Below, piece after piece: positions 34,722 to 44,491 of a DNA stretch of 64,000 nt. The notes beneath the pieces are model-generated. The model was given only the letters and a program-made list of their open reading frames with translations, did not search any database and had not been told where the DNA came from. The position numbers were made by a program, and so were the translations under genes. Numbering within the stretch: position 1 is the first letter of the stretch; each line of letters starts with the position of its first letter. The stretch covers positions 248,001 to 312,000 of the forward strand of contig NZ_AQXY01000031.1 in assembly GCF_000376845.1 (NCBI RefSeq), given 5' to 3'. The DNA is from Thioalkalivibrio sp. ALE14. Lineage in GTDB: Bacteria > Pseudomonadota > Gammaproteobacteria > Ectothiorhodospirales > Ectothiorhodospiraceae.

Positions 34722-34989
34722 GGGAAACACTGATTCATGTACACGCTCGCGCTCGAGTCGCTTTTGCGTGCGAACAAGGCGCGGCGACGGCCGTGCAGTC
34801 ATTCTGCACAAGGGAGCCGCAACGCCGTGCGCGCGCAAAAGCGGCCGAGCCCCTTCGGGGTTGGTACCCCAGGTTCCCCGATCCTGCGTTGCGGCCCTTG
34901 CCGGTAGAACCACTACCGGCTGCGCACCGCGCCTTGTCTCGGAAAACCTGGGGTGCCAACGCGAGCGTGTACATGAATCAGTGTTTCCC
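34722..34989. repeat. Palindromic element, full copy D (268 bp)
   Basis: Same orientation as A and the closest copy to it. Left GGGAAACACTGATTCATGTAC, right ...CAGTGTTTCCC, flanked by CTAG on both sides. Apical stems GTGCAG/CTGCAC (34793-34809, loop TCATT) and CCGGTAG/CTACCGG (34901-34919, loop AACCA). The right end overlaps the 3' end of the EAL gene: the last codons and the TGA stop of that gene lie in the terminal repeat. Confidence 0.88.
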
Positions 34990-36255
34990 TAGACGCTTGC
35001 CCGACCCAACCCTCTCCATGAACTGCTCCAGGCGAGCGGGCCGGCCGAGGTGGAACCCCTGCACCAGATCGCAGTCCAGCTCGCGCAGGCGCACCTGGGT
35101 CTCGGCATCCTCCACCCCTTCGGCCACCACGCTCAGCCCCAGCTTGTGTCCCAGGCCGATCATGGACTCCACAATGCGCTCGTGGGGCGGGCTGGTCGTC
35201 AGTTCATGGACAAAGGTCATGTCGATCTTCAGCTCGTCCAGCGGCATACGCAGCAGACGATCCATCGAGGAATAGCCGATGCCGAAGTCATCCATGGACA
35301 CCCGAAGACCCAGATCCTTCATGCTGTGGAGCGCCTCGCGCGCCTCGGCATCATGGCTTTCCATCACCGCAGTTTCGGTCAGCTCCACGGTGACCATTTC
35401 CGCTGGAACCCGCCACAGCTCCAGGGACTGGGCCACCAGATCGACCACCTCGCGCTCCCGCACGTCATCGGCGGAAAAGTTCACCGACACCCCTGCGTCC
35501 AGCCCGGCCTGACGGTATTCCGCGCACTGGCGAAGCGCCGTATTGAAGACCCAGTGGGTCAATCGGGGCATCAGGTCCGTCCCCTCGGCGGCCGCGATCA
35601 TGGTGTCCGGGCGAATCGCGCCGTACTCCGGGTGGTCCCAGCGCAGCAGGGCCTCGACCGACTGCAGGCGTCCCGTCGCCAGCGCGACCTGCGGCTGGTA
35701 TTCGAGGTGCAGGCTCCCCGCCTCCACGGCCTGCCCCAGCTGTGACCACAGATCCACGCCTTCCAGCAACGATGCGGTGGCCTCCGGGGCGTAGCGGCGC
35801 AGGCGTTCGCGCGCCCGCCGGGCCTGGCGCAACGCGGCATAGGCGTGCGTCAGCAGTTCGTCCGGACGACCACCGTTCGGCGGGGCCAGGGCAAACCCTG
35901 CGCGCGGCCATAGCAGTACTTGCCGTTCGCCCACCGCGAAGGGTTCGCTTAGAACCCGCAGTACCTTGTGTACCGCCAGCTCGGCGAAACCGCTCTCCGC
36001 GACGTCCGGGAATGCAGCACCCAACTGATGCCGACCGGTAATCCCCACATGGGCGTCCGACAACTCGGCCTGCAAGGCATGGGCCGCGCGGCGGATCAGA
36101 TCATCGGTCACCCGGTAGCCCAGCGCCACATCCACATCGCCCAGCCCTTCCAGACCGATTACGGCGACCGCGGGTCGAGGGCTCTCGCCACCCGACCGCG
36201 CCACCAGCGCGTCCAGGGCATCGAGGAAATCCGGGTACTCGTGCCAGTCGCCCAT
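34978..36255 (-). CDS. Degenerate-GGDEF/EAL c-di-GMP phosphodiesterase
   Basis: A 425-residue cytosolic signalling protein. Residues about 25-155 are GGDEF-like but with GRHQLGAAF in place of GGDEF, so cyclase activity is unlikely. Residues about 170-415 are a complete EAL domain (EYQPQVAL, VEALLRW, VSVNFSADD, ELTETAVM, DDFGIGYSS, LDELKID, VVAEGVED, QGFHLGRP). Its last residues, LGKH and the TGA stop, are encoded by the terminus of repeat D. It is co-directional with the HD-GYP gene upstream (57-base gap). Confidence 0.9.
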   Translation of the reverse strand: MGDWHEYPDFLDALDALVARSGGESPRPAVAVIGLEGLGDVDVALGYRVTDDLIRRAAHALQAELSDAHVGITGRHQLGAAFPDVAESGFAELAVHKVLRVLSEPFAVGERQVLLWPRAGFALAPPNGGRPDELLTHAYAALRQARRARERLRRYAPEATASLLEGVDLWSQLGQAVEAGSLHLEYQPQVALATGRLQSVEALLRWDHPEYGAIRPDTMIAAAEGTDLMPRLTHWVFNTALRQCAEYRQAGLDAGVSVNFSADDVREREVVDLVAQSLELWRVPAEMVTVELTETAVMESHDAEAREALHSMKDLGLRVSMDDFGIGYSSMDRLLRMPLDELKIDMTFVHELTTSPPHERIVESMIGLGHKLGLSVVAEGVEDAETQVRLRELDCDLVQGFHLGRPARLEQFMERVGSGKRLGKH

Positions 36256-36312: not shown

Positions 36313-37560
36313 TCAAAGATAATAGCGCGCCGGGTCGATCCCGTAGGCACCGTCCGGCAAATCCCGCCGGATCTGGCGCCTGGCCCCTTCGGACTCCGGG
36401 TCGCGCGCCCCCAGGTCCAGCTCCCGAGGATCCGGATACGGTACATGCGAGGGGTCCAGGATCCGCATGACGCGGGGCATGAATCGCTGGGTACGGCGAT
36501 GGCTGAGCACAATGGCCACCTCGCCATTGTCCAGTTCGACCAGGCTGCCGACCGGGAAAAGCCCCACGCAGTGGGTGAACTGATCCACCAGGGCCGAATT
36601 CAGGCCCCAGCGCGCGTTCTCGCGCAGTTCCTTCAGGGCCTCGTACGGGGTCCGGACCAGGGTCCTGCTCGCCAGCATCTCCTCGTAGGAATCGACGATG
36701 GCCGCCATCCGCGCGTAGGCACTGATCTGGTTGGCCACCAGCCCGCGTGGATACCCGCGGCCGTCCTCGCGCTCATGGTGCTGGGCCACGATCTCGCGCA
36801 CCCCTTCGGGAATCCCGTGGGAACGGTCCAGGATCGCCTCGCCATACTCGACGTGGCGATGCATGGCCCGACGCTGATCGGGCGACAGTCGCTCGGCGCG
36901 ACCCGGCTGCGCCCCGGGCATCTGCATCTTGCCGATGTCCATCAACAGTCCCCCCAGCCCGAGAATCGACAATGCCGCCCGATCCAGTCCCAGATGCCGC
37001 CCCAGTGCCAGCAGGTGGATCGAAACCTTCAGCGAATGGTCGTACAGGGCATCGCCGGAATCCCGCAGCCGCGCCAGCAGCAGCAGGGCATCCGGATTGC
37101 GCTCCACGCTCTCGCGCAATGCCTCGGAGGCCTCACGGGCCGTTGCCACCCGCACGCCTGGATTGCGCTCCAGCGCCGCGCGGATCTGCTCCAGAACGCC
37201 TTGTGCCACCGCGTGCGCGGCCTTCGCAGTCGGGAGCTCCTCCTCCACCGAGCAGTGATCCCGATAGACCGTCATTCCCCGAAACTGCGCGCTCTCGGCC
37301 TGGCGCAGCGCCTCCGCCGCCTCCGCGGGTGCGGCACTCTCCCCCGGCAGGCGGCGCAGAGAATCCGGAGCGCTTTTCTCCAGGTCGACAAACACGCGTG
37401 CGCAATGACGGGCCAACTCGTCAATATCGTCCTGCGAACGGATCTGAATACCCTCGAACAGGTAGGGCGTCTCCAACCACGGACGGTCAAGCTGGCAAAC
37501 GTACATGCCAACCTGCAGATCCGTCACCAGAATCTCCTGCTGAATCACACTCCAGGGCAT
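36313..37560 (-). CDS. DUF3391/HD-GYP-domain protein with altered HD pair
   Basis: A 415-residue protein. Residues about 5-130 are DUF3391 (LVTDLQVGMYVCQLDRPW). Residues about 160-340 are HD-GYP. The GYP part is normal (QHHEREDGRGYPRGL) but the HD dyad reads LLMDIGK, with Met in place of the first metal-binding His. The other metal His and Asp positions look present. It may be a weak or inactive phosphodiesterase, or a c-di-GMP sensor. It heads a two-gene operon with the EAL protein. Confidence 0.87.
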   Translation of the reverse strand: MPWSVIQQEILVTDLQVGMYVCQLDRPWLETPYLFEGIQIRSQDDIDELARHCARVFVDLEKSAPDSLRRLPGESAAPAEAAEALRQAESAQFRGMTVYRDHCSVEEELPTAKAAHAVAQGVLEQIRAALERNPGVRVATAREASEALRESVERNPDALLLLARLRDSGDALYDHSLKVSIHLLALGRHLGLDRAALSILGLGGLLMDIGKMQMPGAQPGRAERLSPDQRRAMHRHVEYGEAILDRSHGIPEGVREIVAQHHEREDGRGYPRGLVANQISAYARMAAIVDSYEEMLASRTLVRTPYEALKELRENARWGLNSALVDQFTHCVGLFPVGSLVELDNGEVAIVLSHRRTQRFMPRVMRILDPSHVPYPDPRELDLGARDPESEGARRQIRRDLPDGAYGIDPARYYL

Positions 37561-37749: not shown

Positions 37750-39891
37750 ATGCCGCTCGACCGGGAACCCACCGTCGGCTCCGCCAGCCGCAGCCTCGCC
37801 GCCGCCGGCAAGTGGACGGGCATGTCCGGGCTGTCCATCGTCCAGCGCGAACAGCTGGCCGAGATGGTGGTACCGCGCGTGGTGGAACACCTGGAACGCT
37901 GCGTGGCGACCACCCGCATGGAATGGGAGGCCGGTCGGGCATGGGGCAATTCGGCCCAGAACACGCTGATGTGGGCCAACGACTTCCGCATGTTCGAGAA
38001 GCGGCTGATCCGTGACTTCCAGGACACGCTGATGGACGACTTCCGCTCCAGCGAGTACCCGCCGCAGTACGAGTTCTCCGGCGTCGCCTTCGCCGAACAG
38101 GACGATGGCCTGGCAATCCTCGACGACTACCAGTCCAGCCGGCGCTCCCTGCGCCACAAACTGGAAGGCTCGATGCGGGAGAACAACCGCTATTCGCATT
38201 ACGTCTTCACCCAGGCCGCACAGGAAAAGAACCGTTTCGAGCACCCCAACTGGGCCCCGTGGTCGCCGCTGCACTGGTACGAGCGCCTGATCGAGATCGG
38301 CGAGCTGTACTTCGGCAAGACCGACATGACCCTGGACCTGATGCGCTCCTACCTGGACTGCATGCAGAAGACCGCGGCCCCCACCCTGGCCTTCGTCGTC
38401 GAGGCGGTCGAACACTGCGGCCTGATCACCGAACCGCGCGCGGCACCCGAGTCCAGCGAGACCCTGCGGCGCAACGCCTCCTGGAAGCGGCTGGCCGGCG
38501 CCCGCGACGACGATGCACGTCCGGATGCCCCCGACGGGGACGGAGAGGATGCATCCGCGTCCTCCGGCTGGCGACCCTCCACCCGCAAGACCGAGGTAGA
38601 CGAGGCGGCGCGAATGCCGGATACCGAGGCCGACCCGGCGCAATGGGCCGCGTGGGCCTCCAACATGGTCCAGTCGCCCGTGTTCCGGCCTGTCGGCGGC
38701 AACGGCGGTGTGGGTGCCGCGCCCGGCACGGACACCGGCGCGTCGATGACCGCATTCGTGATGCCCTCCGATCAGCCGGACCCCCGTGCCTCGCTGATGC
38801 CCTTCATCCATGACCTGTTGCAGGGGCTGTTCGATCACATCTTCCGCGAGGTCGGCTTCAACCCCGCCGTACGTGCCGAGATCGGCGAGATGCAGTATCC
38901 GCTGGCCACCGCCGTCATCCGCGATCTCGGGTTCTTCCGCGACCGTTCGCACCCCCTGCGCCTGTGGATCGGCAGCCTCATCAATGTCGCCATCCGCATC
39001 AATCCGGAATCCGAACCCGACGGCGAGGACGTGGAGCGCTACCTCGGCTGCATCCGGCGTTCCATCGAACACCTGCGCAACCAGGCCGACCGGCTCGACC
39101 GCGATGGCGCCGAAGTGCTGATGAACCAGTTCCTCGAAAGCGTGGAAAACGAGGACACGCTCTGGCATGAACGCCAGATCACCCAGATCGATCTGCCCCA
39201 CGCCGAGGAATGGGCCGAACAGGCACGGCGCAACCTCGCGCTGGCGGCACTGGAGACCGGCGCCGACCTGCCGGAGAGCGCGGCCGAGGAGATCTTCCAG
39301 TCCTGGGAGACGGTCCTGGCCGTCGAGCACGATGCCGGAGAGGCCGGAGAGGCCCTGCATCGCGTACTGCGCCAGGTCGTGCGCCACATCTGCAACATGG
39401 CCACCGCGGCCGAGGTCAATCCGCTGGTGGCCGAGGCGAAGGAACACGCGCGGGCCGCGGGTCTGGGGGACGATCGCATCCGGGACCTGGTGCAGCATCT
39501 GGGCAAGGCGCACCTCTTCCGTCTGCGGGCACCGGACGACGCTGAACGCTTCGACCCGCGCGCGCGCCTGCAGACCCGCGAGTCCGTGCGTTACGAGGAC
39601 GACGACCCGACACTGGATCAGGACCGCGACGACGACCATGTCTTCGCCGCCATCGGACTCGATGTCGGGGACTGGTTCGAATTCTCCGACGAGGAGGGTC
39701 AGAATCCGCGGCGGCTGGCCCTGATCTGGCGCGGCGACACCACGCGCCGTTTCTTCTTCCTGTCCCTGGACGGCGTACACGCCCGCCGCCACAGCCTGCA
39801 GGGGGTCGCCCAGGAGCTGCGTCAGGGCCGGATGCGCGCCCTGCCGGAAGACAACCCGCTGGACGCCATCATCGAGGCGCCCGCCAGCTGA
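37750..39891 (+). CDS. DUF1631-family protein
   Basis: A 713-residue cytosolic protein of a family of unknown function found in c-di-GMP-rich proteobacteria. The N-terminal 200 residues are helical and rich in charged residues (MEWEAGRAWGN, FEHPNWAPWSPLHWYERLIE). A low-complexity linker (about 235-320) is followed by a large helical middle and a C-terminal small beta domain (LDVGDWFEFSDEEGQNPRR, TTRRFFFLSLDG) that resembles PilZ-type barrels. No catalytic motif seen. Convergent with the pseudokinase gene. Confidence 0.85.
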   Translation: MPLDREPTVGSASRSLAAAGKWTGMSGLSIVQREQLAEMVVPRVVEHLERCVATTRMEWEAGRAWGNSAQNTLMWANDFRMFEKRLIRDFQDTLMDDFRSSEYPPQYEFSGVAFAEQDDGLAILDDYQSSRRSLRHKLEGSMRENNRYSHYVFTQAAQEKNRFEHPNWAPWSPLHWYERLIEIGELYFGKTDMTLDLMRSYLDCMQKTAAPTLAFVVEAVEHCGLITEPRAAPESSETLRRNASWKRLAGARDDDARPDAPDGDGEDASASSGWRPSTRKTEVDEAARMPDTEADPAQWAAWASNMVQSPVFRPVGGNGGVGAAPGTDTGASMTAFVMPSDQPDPRASLMPFIHDLLQGLFDHIFREVGFNPAVRAEIGEMQYPLATAVIRDLGFFRDRSHPLRLWIGSLINVAIRINPESEPDGEDVERYLGCIRRSIEHLRNQADRLDRDGAEVLMNQFLESVENEDTLWHERQITQIDLPHAEEWAEQARRNLALAALETGADLPESAAEEIFQSWETVLAVEHDAGEAGEALHRVLRQVVRHICNMATAAEVNPLVAEAKEHARAAGLGDDRIRDLVQHLGKAHLFRLRAPDDAERFDPRARLQTRESVRYEDDDPTLDQDRDDDHVFAAIGLDVGDWFEFSDEEGQNPRRLALIWRGDTTRRFFFLSLDGVHARRHSLQGVAQELRQGRMRALPEDNPLDAIIEAPAS

Positions 39892-39907: not shown

Positions 39908-42244
39908 TCAGTCGCGGGCCTGCCGGATCGCCAGTGCCAGCTGGTTGCGCACCGCCTTCAGGGCCCGCAGAACCGTCGGTTCCAGCTCGGCCCCCTCCGG
40001 CAACTCCAGGTACAGCAGCCCCACGCAGTGCTCCCGCACCGCCAGCGGCAACAGCAGGAAACTGCGCGCGTCCAGCGCCTGCCGGAACTCGTCCGGGATG
40101 TAACGGCTGATCGAGGCCTCGTGGCTGTCGGTGATGACCAGGTCCTTTTGCTGCTGCAGCGCCAGCGCCAGGATATCCCCCTGGCCCGAAACCGACAGCC
40201 GCAGCCGCCCGGACAGCGTCTCGGCGTCCTGCCCGAAGGCGGTGTGCGCCACCAGGACCCGGTGCTCGCGATCGGCCAGCATCAGCATCACGCGGCGCAG
40301 ACCCAGGGTTCGGTACAGACTCTCGAGGGTCGTCTGGACCAGCGCATTCAGGTCGAAGTCACCCACCATGCTGTCCAGCATGTCGGTCAGGGCCTCCATC
40401 AGCGCCGCGGCCTGCGCGCCCGGATCGTCCGGCGCCTGCGTCACCGGCTCTTCGCTGCCCTCATCGGACTCGAGCGCCGTCGGACTCCCCTCTTCGAGCC
40501 GAACGCCCAGATTGGCCTTCAAGCGGTTCAACGGTTCGCGGCCTTCCGGCGGCAGCTTGACCACCGCCAGGAAGTGATCCATGTGCTCGCGCCCCGACTT
40601 GATGGCCCGCTGCATGCCACGGGCATCCACCCCCAGGGCATGTTCGTAGCGCTTGCGCAGATCCGTCAGTAAGCCCCCCTGCTGCTCCCGATCGGCCTGG
40701 GTAATGCACTGCCCCATCTCCGAGGCCAGGGTCACGATGCGGTGCAGGCGCTGGTCGGCATCCCGGGCCGCCGGCAGAGTGCCGGACGGCGCCCGTTCGA
40801 CCGTCGTGATGATCTCCCGGGGAAAATTCCAGTCCTCCAGCACACTGCGCGCCAAAGCCTCGTAGGACAGTCCCAGCACCTGGCGGGCGGCGCTACCCTC
40901 GCCCGTGCCCTGGCCCACGCGAATGCGGATCTCGTCCGCCTCCTCGGGCAGGTAGTACAGCACCAGCATGCGCCCGATATCGTGGAACAGGGCGCAGACA
41001 AAGGCCTGCTCGCTCTCCACCCCGCCGACCTGCTCCGCCAGGTCCCGCGCCAGCATGGCGCTGAACAGCGTGCCGACCAGGGCCTCCATCAGGCGCCCGG
41101 AATGACGTCCGCCCTTCAGGTTCTCGAACAGCACCAGCCCGAGCGCCGCCGTGCGCACCTGTTCGAAACCCAGCAGCACGATCGCGCGCGAAACGGTGCG
41201 GATATTGCCGCCAAAATTGCTGTAAAAGGGCGAGTTGGCCAGCCGCAGCAGCTTCTGCGTAGTGGCATAGTCCTTCAGTACCGCGTTCGACAGCTCGGCC
41301 ACCGAGCGCCTCATGGTGTCATCGGAACACTGGGTGATCTCGCGGATGTGACTGGAGATCCCGGGGAAGTCGGGCTTGCGCCGGATCTTTCGCAGGATGA
41401 AGTCCTGCGACCCGCCCTCTGCCGGACCCTCACCCTCCACGGCCGCCAGTAACGCCTCGCGGAACTCGCGCGCCGAGGCAAAGCGTTCCGCCGGATCCGG
41501 CCGGGTTGCCCGCAGCACCAGGGCATCGAAGCGTTCGTCGCCATTGCCGGTACGACCGGACGGCGGCTCCAGCGCACCCGCCTGCATCGACTGCCGGATC
41601 GTCTCCGGACGGTCACCGGCGAACGCGCGCTCGCCGGTCAGCATCTCGAAAAACAGGGCCCCGAGCGAGAACACGTCAGAGCGTTCGGTGGCCGCCTCTC
41701 CCGCCAGCTGTTCCGGTGCCAGGTAGTAGGGGGTATCCGGCAAGTGGCTCTCGCCGCGCGCGGCGGCGTCGGGCAGGGCCATGCCCAGTCCGGTGATACG
41801 CGCATGGCCCTCGGGGTTCACGGTCACGTTGGCCGGCTGCAGCGCCCCGTGCAGAATCCCCTGCTCGTGAGCCGCCGCCGCGGCATCCAGCAACTCGCGC
41901 ATCAGCGCCAGGGCACGGTCGATGGGCAGGGCGCCACGCGCCAGGATCTGGTCCAGGGTTTCGCCCTCGATGTACTCGAACACCAGGTAGACGCCCTGGG
42001 GGTAATCGCCCGCCTCGAAGATCGGTGCGATATTCGGGTGCCGGAAGCGACTCAGGCGCCGCGCGTCCGCCAGCAGCGCCTGACGGGCCGCGGCATCCGC
42101 CGCGGGATCGGTCAGCGTTCGAATCGCGACCTGGCGATCGAGTACCGGGTCGTGCGCCACGTAGAGCCCGTCGCGCGCACTGGCACCCAGCGTCCGCGTA
42201 ATCCGGAAACGTTCGATCTCGGGAACGGTCACCCGGTCAGCCAT
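39908..42244 (-). CDS. Pseudokinase-HDOD-GAF signalling protein
   Basis: A 778-residue three-domain protein. Residues about 8-270 are a Ser/Thr kinase fold in which the VAIK Lys is Arg (VAIRTL), HRD is HGA (HGALQPANV), and DFG is GLG (ITGLGMA), while APE (YYLAPEQL) and DVFSLGALFFEM are kept; catalysis is very unlikely. Residues about 290-500 are an HDOD domain (LLRLANSPFYS, FVCALFHDIGRML). Residues about 610-770 are a GAF domain. The ATG at 42244 has GGGGTG about 9 bases upstream. Convergent with DUF1631, so the pair may share a c-di-GMP/chemotaxis-like pathway; inference. Confidence 0.88.
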   Translation of the reverse strand: MADRVTVPEIERFRITRTLGASARDGLYVAHDPVLDRQVAIRTLTDPAADAAARQALLADARRLSRFRHPNIAPIFEAGDYPQGVYLVFEYIEGETLDQILARGALPIDRALALMRELLDAAAAAHEQGILHGALQPANVTVNPEGHARITGLGMALPDAAARGESHLPDTPYYLAPEQLAGEAATERSDVFSLGALFFEMLTGERAFAGDRPETIRQSMQAGALEPPSGRTGNGDERFDALVLRATRPDPAERFASAREFREALLAAVEGEGPAEGGSQDFILRKIRRKPDFPGISSHIREITQCSDDTMRRSVAELSNAVLKDYATTQKLLRLANSPFYSNFGGNIRTVSRAIVLLGFEQVRTAALGLVLFENLKGGRHSGRLMEALVGTLFSAMLARDLAEQVGGVESEQAFVCALFHDIGRMLVLYYLPEEADEIRIRVGQGTGEGSAARQVLGLSYEALARSVLEDWNFPREIITTVERAPSGTLPAARDADQRLHRIVTLASEMGQCITQADREQQGGLLTDLRKRYEHALGVDARGMQRAIKSGREHMDHFLAVVKLPPEGREPLNRLKANLGVRLEEGSPTALESDEGSEEPVTQAPDDPGAQAAALMEALTDMLDSMVGDFDLNALVQTTLESLYRTLGLRRVMLMLADREHRVLVAHTAFGQDAETLSGRLRLSVSGQGDILALALQQQKDLVITDSHEASISRYIPDEFRQALDARSFLLLPLAVREHCVGLLYLELPEGAELEPTVLRALKAVRNQLALAIRQARD

Positions 42245-42388: not shown

Positions 42389-42769
42389 TCAGTCGGCCGG
42401 ATCGCGCGCGTGCTCCTTCAGGATATCCAGCGGAATGACCGCCAGGGTCTCCTCGTGCGTTGCGCGCAGAAAGACCCCGGGCGCCGCCCCCGCCCGATAG
42501 GCCTCCAGCCAGCGCGCCGCGCACAGGCACCAGCGGTCGCCGGTCTCCAGGCCCGGAAAGCCGAACTCCGGCACCGGCGTCATCAGGTCATTCCCCTGCG
42601 CCAGGGAGAAATCCAGGAATTCGCGGGTGACCTCGGCGCACACTGTGTGCATGCCCTGGTCATCGTAGCCGGTGGCACACCGGCCATCGCGGTAAAAACC
42701 CGTGACCGGGTCCCGACCGCAGGGCTCGAGTGCCCCGCCGAACACGTTCTTCGAGGGAAAAGGCTGCAT
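42389..42769 (-). CDS. DUF2237-family protein
   Basis: A 126-residue protein of a conserved small family with no known function. The Cys/His-rich middle (GRCATGYDDQGMHTVCAEV, DRWCLCAARW) could bind a metal. ATG 42769. It lies downstream of the DUF2235 hydrolase on the same strand (82-base gap). Confidence 0.82.
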   Translation of the reverse strand: MQPFPSKNVFGGALEPCGRDPVTGFYRDGRCATGYDDQGMHTVCAEVTREFLDFSLAQGNDLMTPVPEFGFPGLETGDRWCLCAARWLEAYRAGAAPGVFLRATHEETLAVIPLDILKEHARDPAD

Positions 42770-42851: not shown

Positions 42852-43883
42852 TCAGTCGGCATCGGGCCAGCCCCATTCGACCAGATGCGCCCGCAGATTG
42901 TCCGGACGATAGCCGGTGTCCTGTTGATACCGCTCCAGCACGCTGGGATGCAGCTCGGTCGGATGACCGGGCAGGTGCAACGGCCGCCGATGGCGCCGGC
43001 GCAGGCGGTAGATGTGCCGCCGCGAGCGATGCAACGGTGCCAGCGGGTCGGGCCGCAGGTGATCCACCAGGTGCGGCTCCGCCTGCAGCCCGGCCATCCG
43101 TGCCTGCTCGACCATCCACGCCAGCGGCACCTCGGACGCAAGCCGGCCGTCACCATCCGGCGCGTAGCCACCCCCTACATCGGCGTGCACACCGCTGAAC
43201 CAGATCTGTTGCAGGTCCAGCCCGGGGCGTGGATCCCACAGGGTCGGCTCGAAGTCGGCGCGGGTCTCGTCGATCGCCATCGCGTGGCGGGCGATGCGGA
43301 CGTTGGGGCCCAGCTTGGTGTCGTAGAATTCGTCGGTGCGGTCCAGCAACCCCAGCAGGGAGAACGGGATGCCCAGGGCCCCGACCGTATCCCAGACCCC
43401 GACAAAGCGGATCTCCCGCGAGGGATGCGCATACGCGGCCCGGAACTCGCGCGACGCCTTTCCCTCCGGCGCGTGGCTGGCCCCGACCTTCTTGTAGTGA
43501 CGGAAGGCCTGCTCGATCAGGCGCGCATCCGGGCGCTTCAGGATCCCGCAGTTGTTAATCAGACCGCACAGGCTACGCACGGTGTAGGCACCGCGGCTGA
43601 AGCCGAACAGGAAGATCCCGCTACCCGGCGCATAGTTCTGGACGATGTAGCGGTAGGCGTCCTGGATGTTCTTGTGGATACCCCGGCCGGTCACGCCGCC
43701 CGTGATCTTCGCGTAGTACGCCCCCACGCCCCAGTCGTAGAAGACCTGCTGCGGGTCGCCACTGGCATCCACCGGCGCGATGGCGCGCGCCAGGCGCAGC
43801 ACGTTGGTCGGCACGTCCGACTCGACGTCCTCCTCCGGGCGATTCCAGGTCCCGTCCGCACAGATCACGATCCGTCGTGTCAT
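42852..43883 (-). CDS. DUF2235 alpha/beta-hydrolase
   Basis: A 343-residue protein of the family that includes type VI phospholipase effectors. The nucleophile elbow is LFGFSRGAYTVR (GFSRG), the acid Asp is in FVGVWDTVG, and the His in FSGVHADVGGGY completes a triad. No T6SS, immunity or adaptor gene is near, so it is probably a housekeeping lipase-like or cytosolic hydrolase rather than an effector. ATG 43883. Confidence 0.86.
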   Translation of the reverse strand: MTRRIVICADGTWNRPEEDVESDVPTNVLRLARAIAPVDASGDPQQVFYDWGVGAYYAKITGGVTGRGIHKNIQDAYRYIVQNYAPGSGIFLFGFSRGAYTVRSLCGLINNCGILKRPDARLIEQAFRHYKKVGASHAPEGKASREFRAAYAHPSREIRFVGVWDTVGALGIPFSLLGLLDRTDEFYDTKLGPNVRIARHAMAIDETRADFEPTLWDPRPGLDLQQIWFSGVHADVGGGYAPDGDGRLASEVPLAWMVEQARMAGLQAEPHLVDHLRPDPLAPLHRSRRHIYRLRRRHRRPLHLPGHPTELHPSVLERYQQDTGYRPDNLRAHLVEWGWPDAD

Positions 43884-43954: not shown

Positions 43955-44491
43955 TCAGGAGCCGATCTCGATGCGGCGCACCCCCGGGCGGGCATCTTCC
44001 TGGCGCCGGGGGATATCGATCTTCAGCACGCCGTTCTTGAACCGCGCCTGGATCGCATCGACATCCGCATCCCCCGGCAGACTGAGGATCCGGCGAAACT
44101 GCCCGTAGGCCCGCTCGACCCGATGATAGCCTTGGTCGTCGTCCTCCGTGTCCTGGCGCTTCTCGCCTGAAATGATCAGGTCATCGCCGTCCACCGTCAG
44201 GTCGATCGCGTCCTCCTCGATACCCGGCACCTCGACGGTAATCCGGTAGGCCTTGCGGCTCTCGGCGATGTCCACGCTGGGCCTGAGCAGCAGCGAGGCC
44301 GCGTCGCGCCCGCGTGCCCCGAGTGCGGCGCCAAAGAAGTCCTCGAACATCCGGTCCATCTCCCGATGCATGCGCATCAGGGGGTCGCGCATCGGCACAT
44401 CGGACGCCTCCCGACGGGCGGGCACCACCTCCGGGCTCTCGGTCTCCTCGCGCTTGAACCAGTTCCACGGCTTGAGCTTTTGCAGGTCCAT
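43955..44491 (-). CDS. Hsp20 small heat-shock protein
   Basis: A 178-residue alpha-crystallin chaperone. Residues about 75-170 are the crystallin domain (VDIAESRKAYRITVEVPG; YGQFRRILSLPGDADVD; FKNGVLKIDIPRR). The hydrophilic C-terminus lacks a clear I-x-I/V anchor except RRIEIG at the end. ATG 44491 is preferred: GGAGGT lies 9 bases upstream, and an ATG six bases earlier is too close. Preceded by a possible sigma-32 promoter. Confidence 0.92.
   Translation of the reverse strand: MDLQKLKPWNWFKREETESPEVVPARREASDVPMRDPLMRMHREMDRMFEDFFGAALGARGRDAASLLLRPSVDIAESRKAYRITVEVPGIEEDAIDLTVDGDDLIISGEKRQDTEDDDQGYHRVERAYGQFRRILSLPGDADVDAIQARFKNGVLKIDIPRRQEDARPGVRRIEIGS

Follow-up and report, generated by a model that had tools for sequence, protein, structure and literature searches.

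A predicted pseudokinase-HDOD-GAF protein with a single apparent origin in a group of Thioalkalivibrio species

A 64,000-nucleotide stretch of the genome of Thioalkalivibrio sp. ALE14, hereafter the window, carries a gene whose product joins a kinase-fold domain stripped of its catalytic residues to an HDOD and a GAF domain. Judged from its sequence, this protein is an old, maintained pseudokinase under purifying selection, and comparison with its relatives points to a single origin of the kinase loss. We regard it as probable that the protein descends from an active kinase regulator and that the dead domain now acts as a non-catalytic docking or allosteric input to the HDOD-GAF core. Thioalkalivibrio are sulfur bacteria of soda lakes; the window's genome measures 3.02 Mb, and the closest named relatives by the pseudokinase protein are Thioalkalivibrio strains, the first being AKL19 (91%).

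The gene lies on the minus strand (39908..42244, stop codon included) and encodes 778 amino acids from an ATG at 42244; the longest listed frame opens at a GTG nine codons upstream. Three domains were placed in the product by Pfam, each scoring above its curated cut-off: a kinase-fold domain, predicted to be catalytically dead, at about residues 10-260 (Pkinase, PF00069, 97.7 bits versus 31.7; 41465..42217, minus strand), an HDOD domain at residues 296-483 (PF08668, 118.7 bits versus 22.9; 40796..41359, minus strand) and a GAF domain at residues 631-773 (PF01590, 49.6 bits versus 22.4; 39926..40354, minus strand). Matches to kinase, HDOD, GAF and HD were the only ones obtained from Pfam at E ≤ 1, in agreement with the fusion that the first-pass annotation had read from the DNA. 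An AlphaFold2 model based on a 37-sequence alignment shows a two-lobed kinase fold, in which 20 of the 25 ten-residue blocks between residues 11 and 260 have a mean pLDDT of 84-97 and the other five of 68-78. Foldseek's top matches in the PDB were kinases of the PknB type, with TM-scores on the target of 0.74-0.86 among the first 24, and the Pfam match and the bilobal fold together assign the domain to the protein kinase superfamily. Over the whole protein the mean pLDDT is 80.1 and the pTM 0.43, and the packing of the domains is of low confidence.

Orthologues over nearly the whole length were found in 14 of 47 genomes of the GTDB family, namely in T. denitrificans and in 13 of the 30 genomes searched in the window's genus, near end-to-end in the 12 of these other than the window's own. 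These 13 proteins (the group) were compared with 28 distinct family members outside it, T. denitrificans included. The HDOD domain does not have the full set of features of HD or HD-GYP phosphohydrolases, in that GYP was found nowhere and no His occurs within residues 389-400, which we take to be the helix where the first metal His of HD proteins would be expected; an HD dyad at residues 421-422 is present in all 13 group members, but in only two of the 28 others. By sequence, MmoQ (E 3e-12) is among the solved relatives of the HDOD domain, and DevS shows a weak resemblance to the GAF part (E 0.0035).

Three residues identify an active Ser/Thr kinase, the Lys of VAIK and the Asp of HRD and of DFG; in the window protein they are Arg42, Ala134 and Gly152, and the kinase residue is lost at all three places in every orthologue found in the genus. 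Arg42, in the motif VAIR (42119..42121, minus strand), replaces the ATP-binding Lys and is Arg in 13/13 group members, compared with Lys in 27 of the 28 others. His-Gly-Ala 132-134 (41843..41851, minus strand) replaces HRD, with Ala, Ser or Thr as third residue throughout the group and Asp in 28/28 others, and Gly-Leu-Gly 152-154 (41783..41791, minus strand) replaces DFG, being GLG in the entire group, whereas Asp152 is kept by 28/28 others. These are the three replacements named in the first-pass annotation, whose pseudokinase reading stands and is extended by losses that it had missed: the alpha-C Glu (Asp60 in the window protein) and the Gly loop (GASARDG in place of GxGxxG), both replaced in most group members, and the catalytic-loop Lys, now Gln136 (HRDLKPAN has become HGALQPAN at 132-139). 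Its statement that structural motifs persist was likewise borne out, both by the fold from AlphaFold2 and Foldseek and by Glu178 of APE, Asp190 and Arg254, each kept in 13/13. His132 and Asn139 of the catalytic loop are also retained by all members, and seven residues in or beside the old motifs (D25, L27, R42, Q136, T151, G152 and L153) are invariant. With a loss of catalytic residues common to its orthologues, the window protein is, on sequence criteria, a pseudokinase.

Outside the group the kinase is nearly always intact. The T. denitrificans orthologue (L045/L019, 62% identity) has VAIK, HRDLKPAN and DFG, and five further relatives, beyond the 28, are intact as well; five weak hits of non-homologous architecture (L079, L084, L101, L104, L111) were excluded from the family counts. 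In a class sample of 369 genomes, whole-query matches occurred in 18 genomes besides two of Thioalkalivibrio, among the matches listed, and other genomes of the class encode kinase-HDOD proteins without a GAF match; the GAF region is reached in 22 of the 28 family members outside the group and lacking in six. The nearest relative outside the GTDB family (G307) is 41% identical, and members from its order (L117/L205, L206, L207) are intact. A likelihood tree of 41 proteins united the 13 in one clade with T. denitrificans as its sister (support 100). Since all 13 are dead by these residues, and T. denitrificans and the family are intact, an active kinase appears to have died once, before the species of the group split. 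Intact close relatives, which the first-pass annotation had taken as a sign of recent decay, thus exist outside the group, in T. denitrificans and almost the whole family, and there are none among the 13 inside it, which share the lost residues without exception.

The outermost member of the pseudokinase clade in this tree, L013, is partly degraded: it reads HRAVQPAN, still with the HR of HRD, and has also kept the alpha-C Glu and two of the Gly-loop glycines. L013, which comes from a genome that is 66% complete (G032), may represent a graded intermediate in the loss; the remaining 12 group at support 89. The sole family member outside the group seen with a partial loss is L131 (G386), a kinase-HDOD-GAF protein with VAIR and HLDLTPAS (Lys to Arg, Asn to Ser) that keeps both Asp and DFG. 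As the matching genomes of its order are intact (L202 and L204 in G412, L125 in G291, L203 in G179), the five genomes of that order gave no sign of a second pseudokinase clade. In another locus of the family (L170:5845-10550), two kinase-HDOD-GAF genes stand in tandem, both with intact kinase motifs.

In the reading that we favour, the ancestor would have been an intact PknB-like Ser/Thr kinase joined to HDOD and usually to GAF, of the kind scattered through Gammaproteobacteria, and on the branch leading to one Thioalkalivibrio group the catalytic and nucleotide-binding residues would have been lost and the dead domain kept. We infer that the domain no longer catalyses phosphorylation; it would instead bind a partner, or itself be phosphorylated, and relay this to the HDOD-GAF core, in which GAF may receive a small-molecule signal and HDOD may act through the binding of a ligand or protein.

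One candidate for such a partner is the intact Ser/Thr kinase encoded elsewhere in the same genome (L002/L240), for which the pseudokinase could be an allosteric partner or a substrate. It has LAIK, HRDIKPEN and DFG together with sCache and HAMP domains, directly follows an FHA gene (the pair spanning L240:8669-11013) and is the only other Pkinase match in the window's genome. A SelO gene is located about 5 kb upstream of this pair (L240:2309-3817). A top-scoring kinase in a frame of 579-697 amino acids is present in all 13 pseudokinase genomes and provides the only other Pkinase match in seven of them, and a species nested in the pseudokinase clade, G025, has no Pkinase match anywhere in its genome. 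This co-loss is, however, a single one, further Pkinase matches, some of them weak, occur in the other six of the 13, there is no linkage between the two genes in the window's genome, and G012 and G021 possess such a kinase and lack the pseudokinase. Moreover, shared ancestry alone predicts the co-occurrence of the 13 kinases, which were matched by score and size. We consider the partnership possible, if unlikely.

The position of G025 derives from an rpoB tree, which places it inside the pseudokinase clade as sister to G019 (support 0.997). The tree holds 26 of the 30 genomes, two having no match (G031, G032) and two a short one (G028, G036), and a second copy from G034 was dropped as well; the genome of L013 (G032) is unplaced by rpoB for want of a match. 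In G025 the DUF1631 gene adjoins the DUF2237 gene with 66 bases between the matches, which indicates that the pseudokinase gene is gone and, having been deleted, is dispensable there. In clade A of the group, to which seven species belong, DUF2237 lies between pseudokinase and hydrolase (42389..42769, minus strand, in the window; Pfam and synteny). That hydrolase, a Tle1-like protein (PF09994, 281 bits; 42852..43883, minus strand), has orthologues in exactly those genomes that carry the pseudokinase, 13 in all, with 74-92% identity in the 12 others and no match that high in the 17 other genomes of the genus; distant homologues (41-43%) occur in G013 and G021. G025 has lost this gene too, save for a possible relic of 73 alignment columns, and has kept the intervening DUF2237. 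The idea that the Tle1-like protein serves type VI secretion is unsupported, the marker VipB/TssC (PF05943) being absent from all 30 genomes of the genus in a search whose E. coli control was positive.

The triple loss in G025, confined to one lineage among species that share ancestry, is a weak lead to partners of the pseudokinase. On this lead, an enzyme-to-scaffold switch on one branch could be proposed, with the dead fold as receiver for the intact kinase and with pseudokinase, kinase and Tle1-like hydrolase acting in one pathway whose members are retained or lost as a set; we hold this proposal to be rather doubtful.

Selection on the dead domain was assessed from Nei-Gojobori counts within clade A (seven sequences, 21 pairs) and clade B (five sequences, 10 pairs). 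Mean dN/dS of the kinase domain was 0.110 in clade A and 0.162 in clade B, compared with 0.060 and 0.047 for HDOD, 0.121 and 0.057 for GAF, and 0.551 and 0.412 for the linker; the region of residues 285-575, at 0.05-0.06 within the clades, was the slowest-evolving part of the protein. In comparisons between the clades, where dS approaches or exceeds 1, the ratios of the three domains (0.18-0.26) are rough. Purifying selection at dN/dS of 0.11-0.16 and a loss common to 13/13 genus orthologues rule out recent decay, and this selection fits a non-catalytic role. The domain has nevertheless not kept its former pace: in one tree, the ratio of kinase to HDOD branch length was 2.09 in the group versus 0.88 outside it (28 outside tips ranging from 0.27 to 1.88), so that, measured against HDOD, the kinase domain changes about 2.4 times as fast here as in other family members, indicating that part of the constraint has relaxed and has not vanished. 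Forty-seven kinase positions are each conserved in 24 or more of the 28 others; the group has changed 13 of them, compared with three of 36 such positions in HDOD. Five of these 13 are invariant within the group, as are 108 of the 251 positions of the whole domain; the changed positions are thus no more conserved than the domain average, which gives no support to the old active site as an interface.

The faster evolution would also be expected of slow decay, in which a functionless kinase domain is retained only through its fusion to a useful HDOD-GAF core, and the loss of the gene in G025 and the occurrence of HDOD-GAF proteins on their own point the same way. In L142 (501 amino acids) Pfam detects HDOD and GAF but no kinase, and frames of 501-556 amino acids with HDOD and GAF only occur in at least seven of the 369 class genomes. 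In the window's genome, L004 joins HDOD to a histidine-kinase ATPase domain, with no GAF reported by Pfam; together with the kinase-less proteins it suggests that the kinase is one of several inputs or outputs on HDOD modules. Slow decay fits poorly with the low dN/dS within both clades, with the 108 invariant kinase positions and with reading frames that run through the match without a stop in 13/13 genomes and show no large deletion when the 13 are aligned, and we judge it improbable. That the domain still uses ATP for a different reaction, for instance AMPylation or glutamylation in the manner of SelO or SidJ, is very improbable: Asn139 and His132 are kept in 13/13 and such cases are described in the available part of PMC12599244, but all 13 have other residues in place of the Lys and of both Asp, most also have the alpha-C Glu and Gly loop replaced, and that same part states that SidJ requires its repurposed Lys and Asp and lists SelO and SidJ with Lys and with Asp at the DFG place (Table 1).

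The gene neighbourhood bears on a further reading, in which the pseudokinase would belong to a functional unit with DUF1631, EAL and HD-GYP proteins in cyclic-di-GMP control. The first-pass annotation had tied the pseudokinase to the convergent DUF1631 gene (37750..39891, plus strand; Pfam). The gene order in clade A is Tle1-like hydrolase, DUF2237, pseudokinase, DUF1631 (four of seven species, the window included), then HD-GYP and EAL (7/7), and the HDOD protein SadB binds c-di-GMP with a Kd of 0.23 uM, a value given in the available part of PMC6543031 for SadB and not assigned to its HDOD domain. In the stretches examined beside the pseudokinase of the five clade B species, however, neither DUF2237, DUF1631, HD-GYP nor EAL was found, and none of these four genes, nor the Tle1-like or the Hsp20 gene, lies within 8 kb on either side of the T. 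denitrificans orthologue. Three DUF1631 genes are present in the window's genome and, so far as found, only two in each of the three clade A species without an adjoining copy; the adjoining copy appears to have gone from these genomes. Conversely, DUF1631 occurs without the pseudokinase in G025 and in G021, the latter with an EAL-HD-GYP-DUF1631 block. Either gene therefore persists in several species in the absence of its neighbour, which rules out DUF1631 and the pseudokinase as a conserved unit and leaves the proposed tie unsustained, DUF1631 standing outside any conserved unit; the cyclic-di-GMP unit as a whole is highly unlikely.

A frequent neighbour is an Hsp20-type small heat-shock gene (43955..44491, minus strand; Pfam and synteny), present in 11 of 13 loci and not found in the examined stretches of L038 and L044. 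It precedes the Tle1-like gene in five of seven clade A species, and both genes are present in 5/5 clade B species. L013 has the Tle1-like, Hsp20 and DUF2237 genes, after which its contig ends too early to judge DUF1631. For the wider family, ORFs of 27 loci (26 and the window) were clustered and clusters in at least four loci considered; no cluster besides the gene itself and its opposite-strand frame was found in more than four of the 27. Hsp20 formed one four-locus cluster (window, L189, L174, L186), and another four loci share a small gene group that is RatA-like by reading. Of the remaining neighbours, the HD-GYP protein (36313-37560, minus strand) has Met for the His of its HD dyad (LLMD[IV]G) in 8/8 copies (window, six clade A species, G021) and keeps HHEREDGRGYP in the seven copies checked, and represents a second conserved, probably impaired domain at the locus. 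The GGDEF-EAL gene (34978-36255, minus strand) scores 215 bits for EAL and 27.7 for GGDEF versus a cut-off of 23.8, with no GGDEF motif by reading.

Among known proteins, the intact kinase-HDOD-GAF proteins of Gammaproteobacteria share all three domains and their order with the window protein, T. denitrificans at 62% identity and distant aligned family members at 26-41%; their kinases are intact, whereas here the kinase residues are lost. No description of kinase-HDOD-GAF regulators was found in the open-licence PMC literature, nor in the available parts of two papers on HDOD and GAF (PMC6416229, PMC12943098), and a search of that literature for HDOD with pseudokinase, or for Thioalkalivibrio with pseudokinase or HDOD, likewise returned nothing. 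EssB/YukC exemplifies the bacterial pseudokinases in which each of the three motifs is altered (PMC12599244, available part); these resemble the window protein in the degradation of the three motifs and Gly loop and in the retained fold, and the difference lies in EssB being a membrane component of a secretion system. The same part of that paper makes no mention of HDOD as a pseudokinase partner. It describes the CP1 pseudokinases as partly proteobacterial, with variable motif loss and GAF-type partners, traits that the window protein shares, and as all linked to COG3899; the window protein has no COG3899 ATPase domain by Pfam at E ≤ 1 and so falls outside CP1. SadB and other HDOD regulators are similar in having HDOD without HD-GYP phosphodiesterase features, but SadB combines HDOD with a YbaK-like domain, and no kinase or GAF is mentioned in the available part of PMC6543031.

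Bacterial pseudokinases are largely unexplored by experiment, according to the available part of PMC12599244. The Thioalkalivibrio protein offers an apparent single-origin case that can be set beside an orthologue with intact kinase from a sister genus, a putative graded intermediate in L013 and, in G025, a species from which the gene has been deleted. If the enzyme-to-scaffold switch were true, the intact T. denitrificans protein would be its unswitched comparison. With such contrasts, the role of a kinase fold that has lost catalysis can be tested directly.
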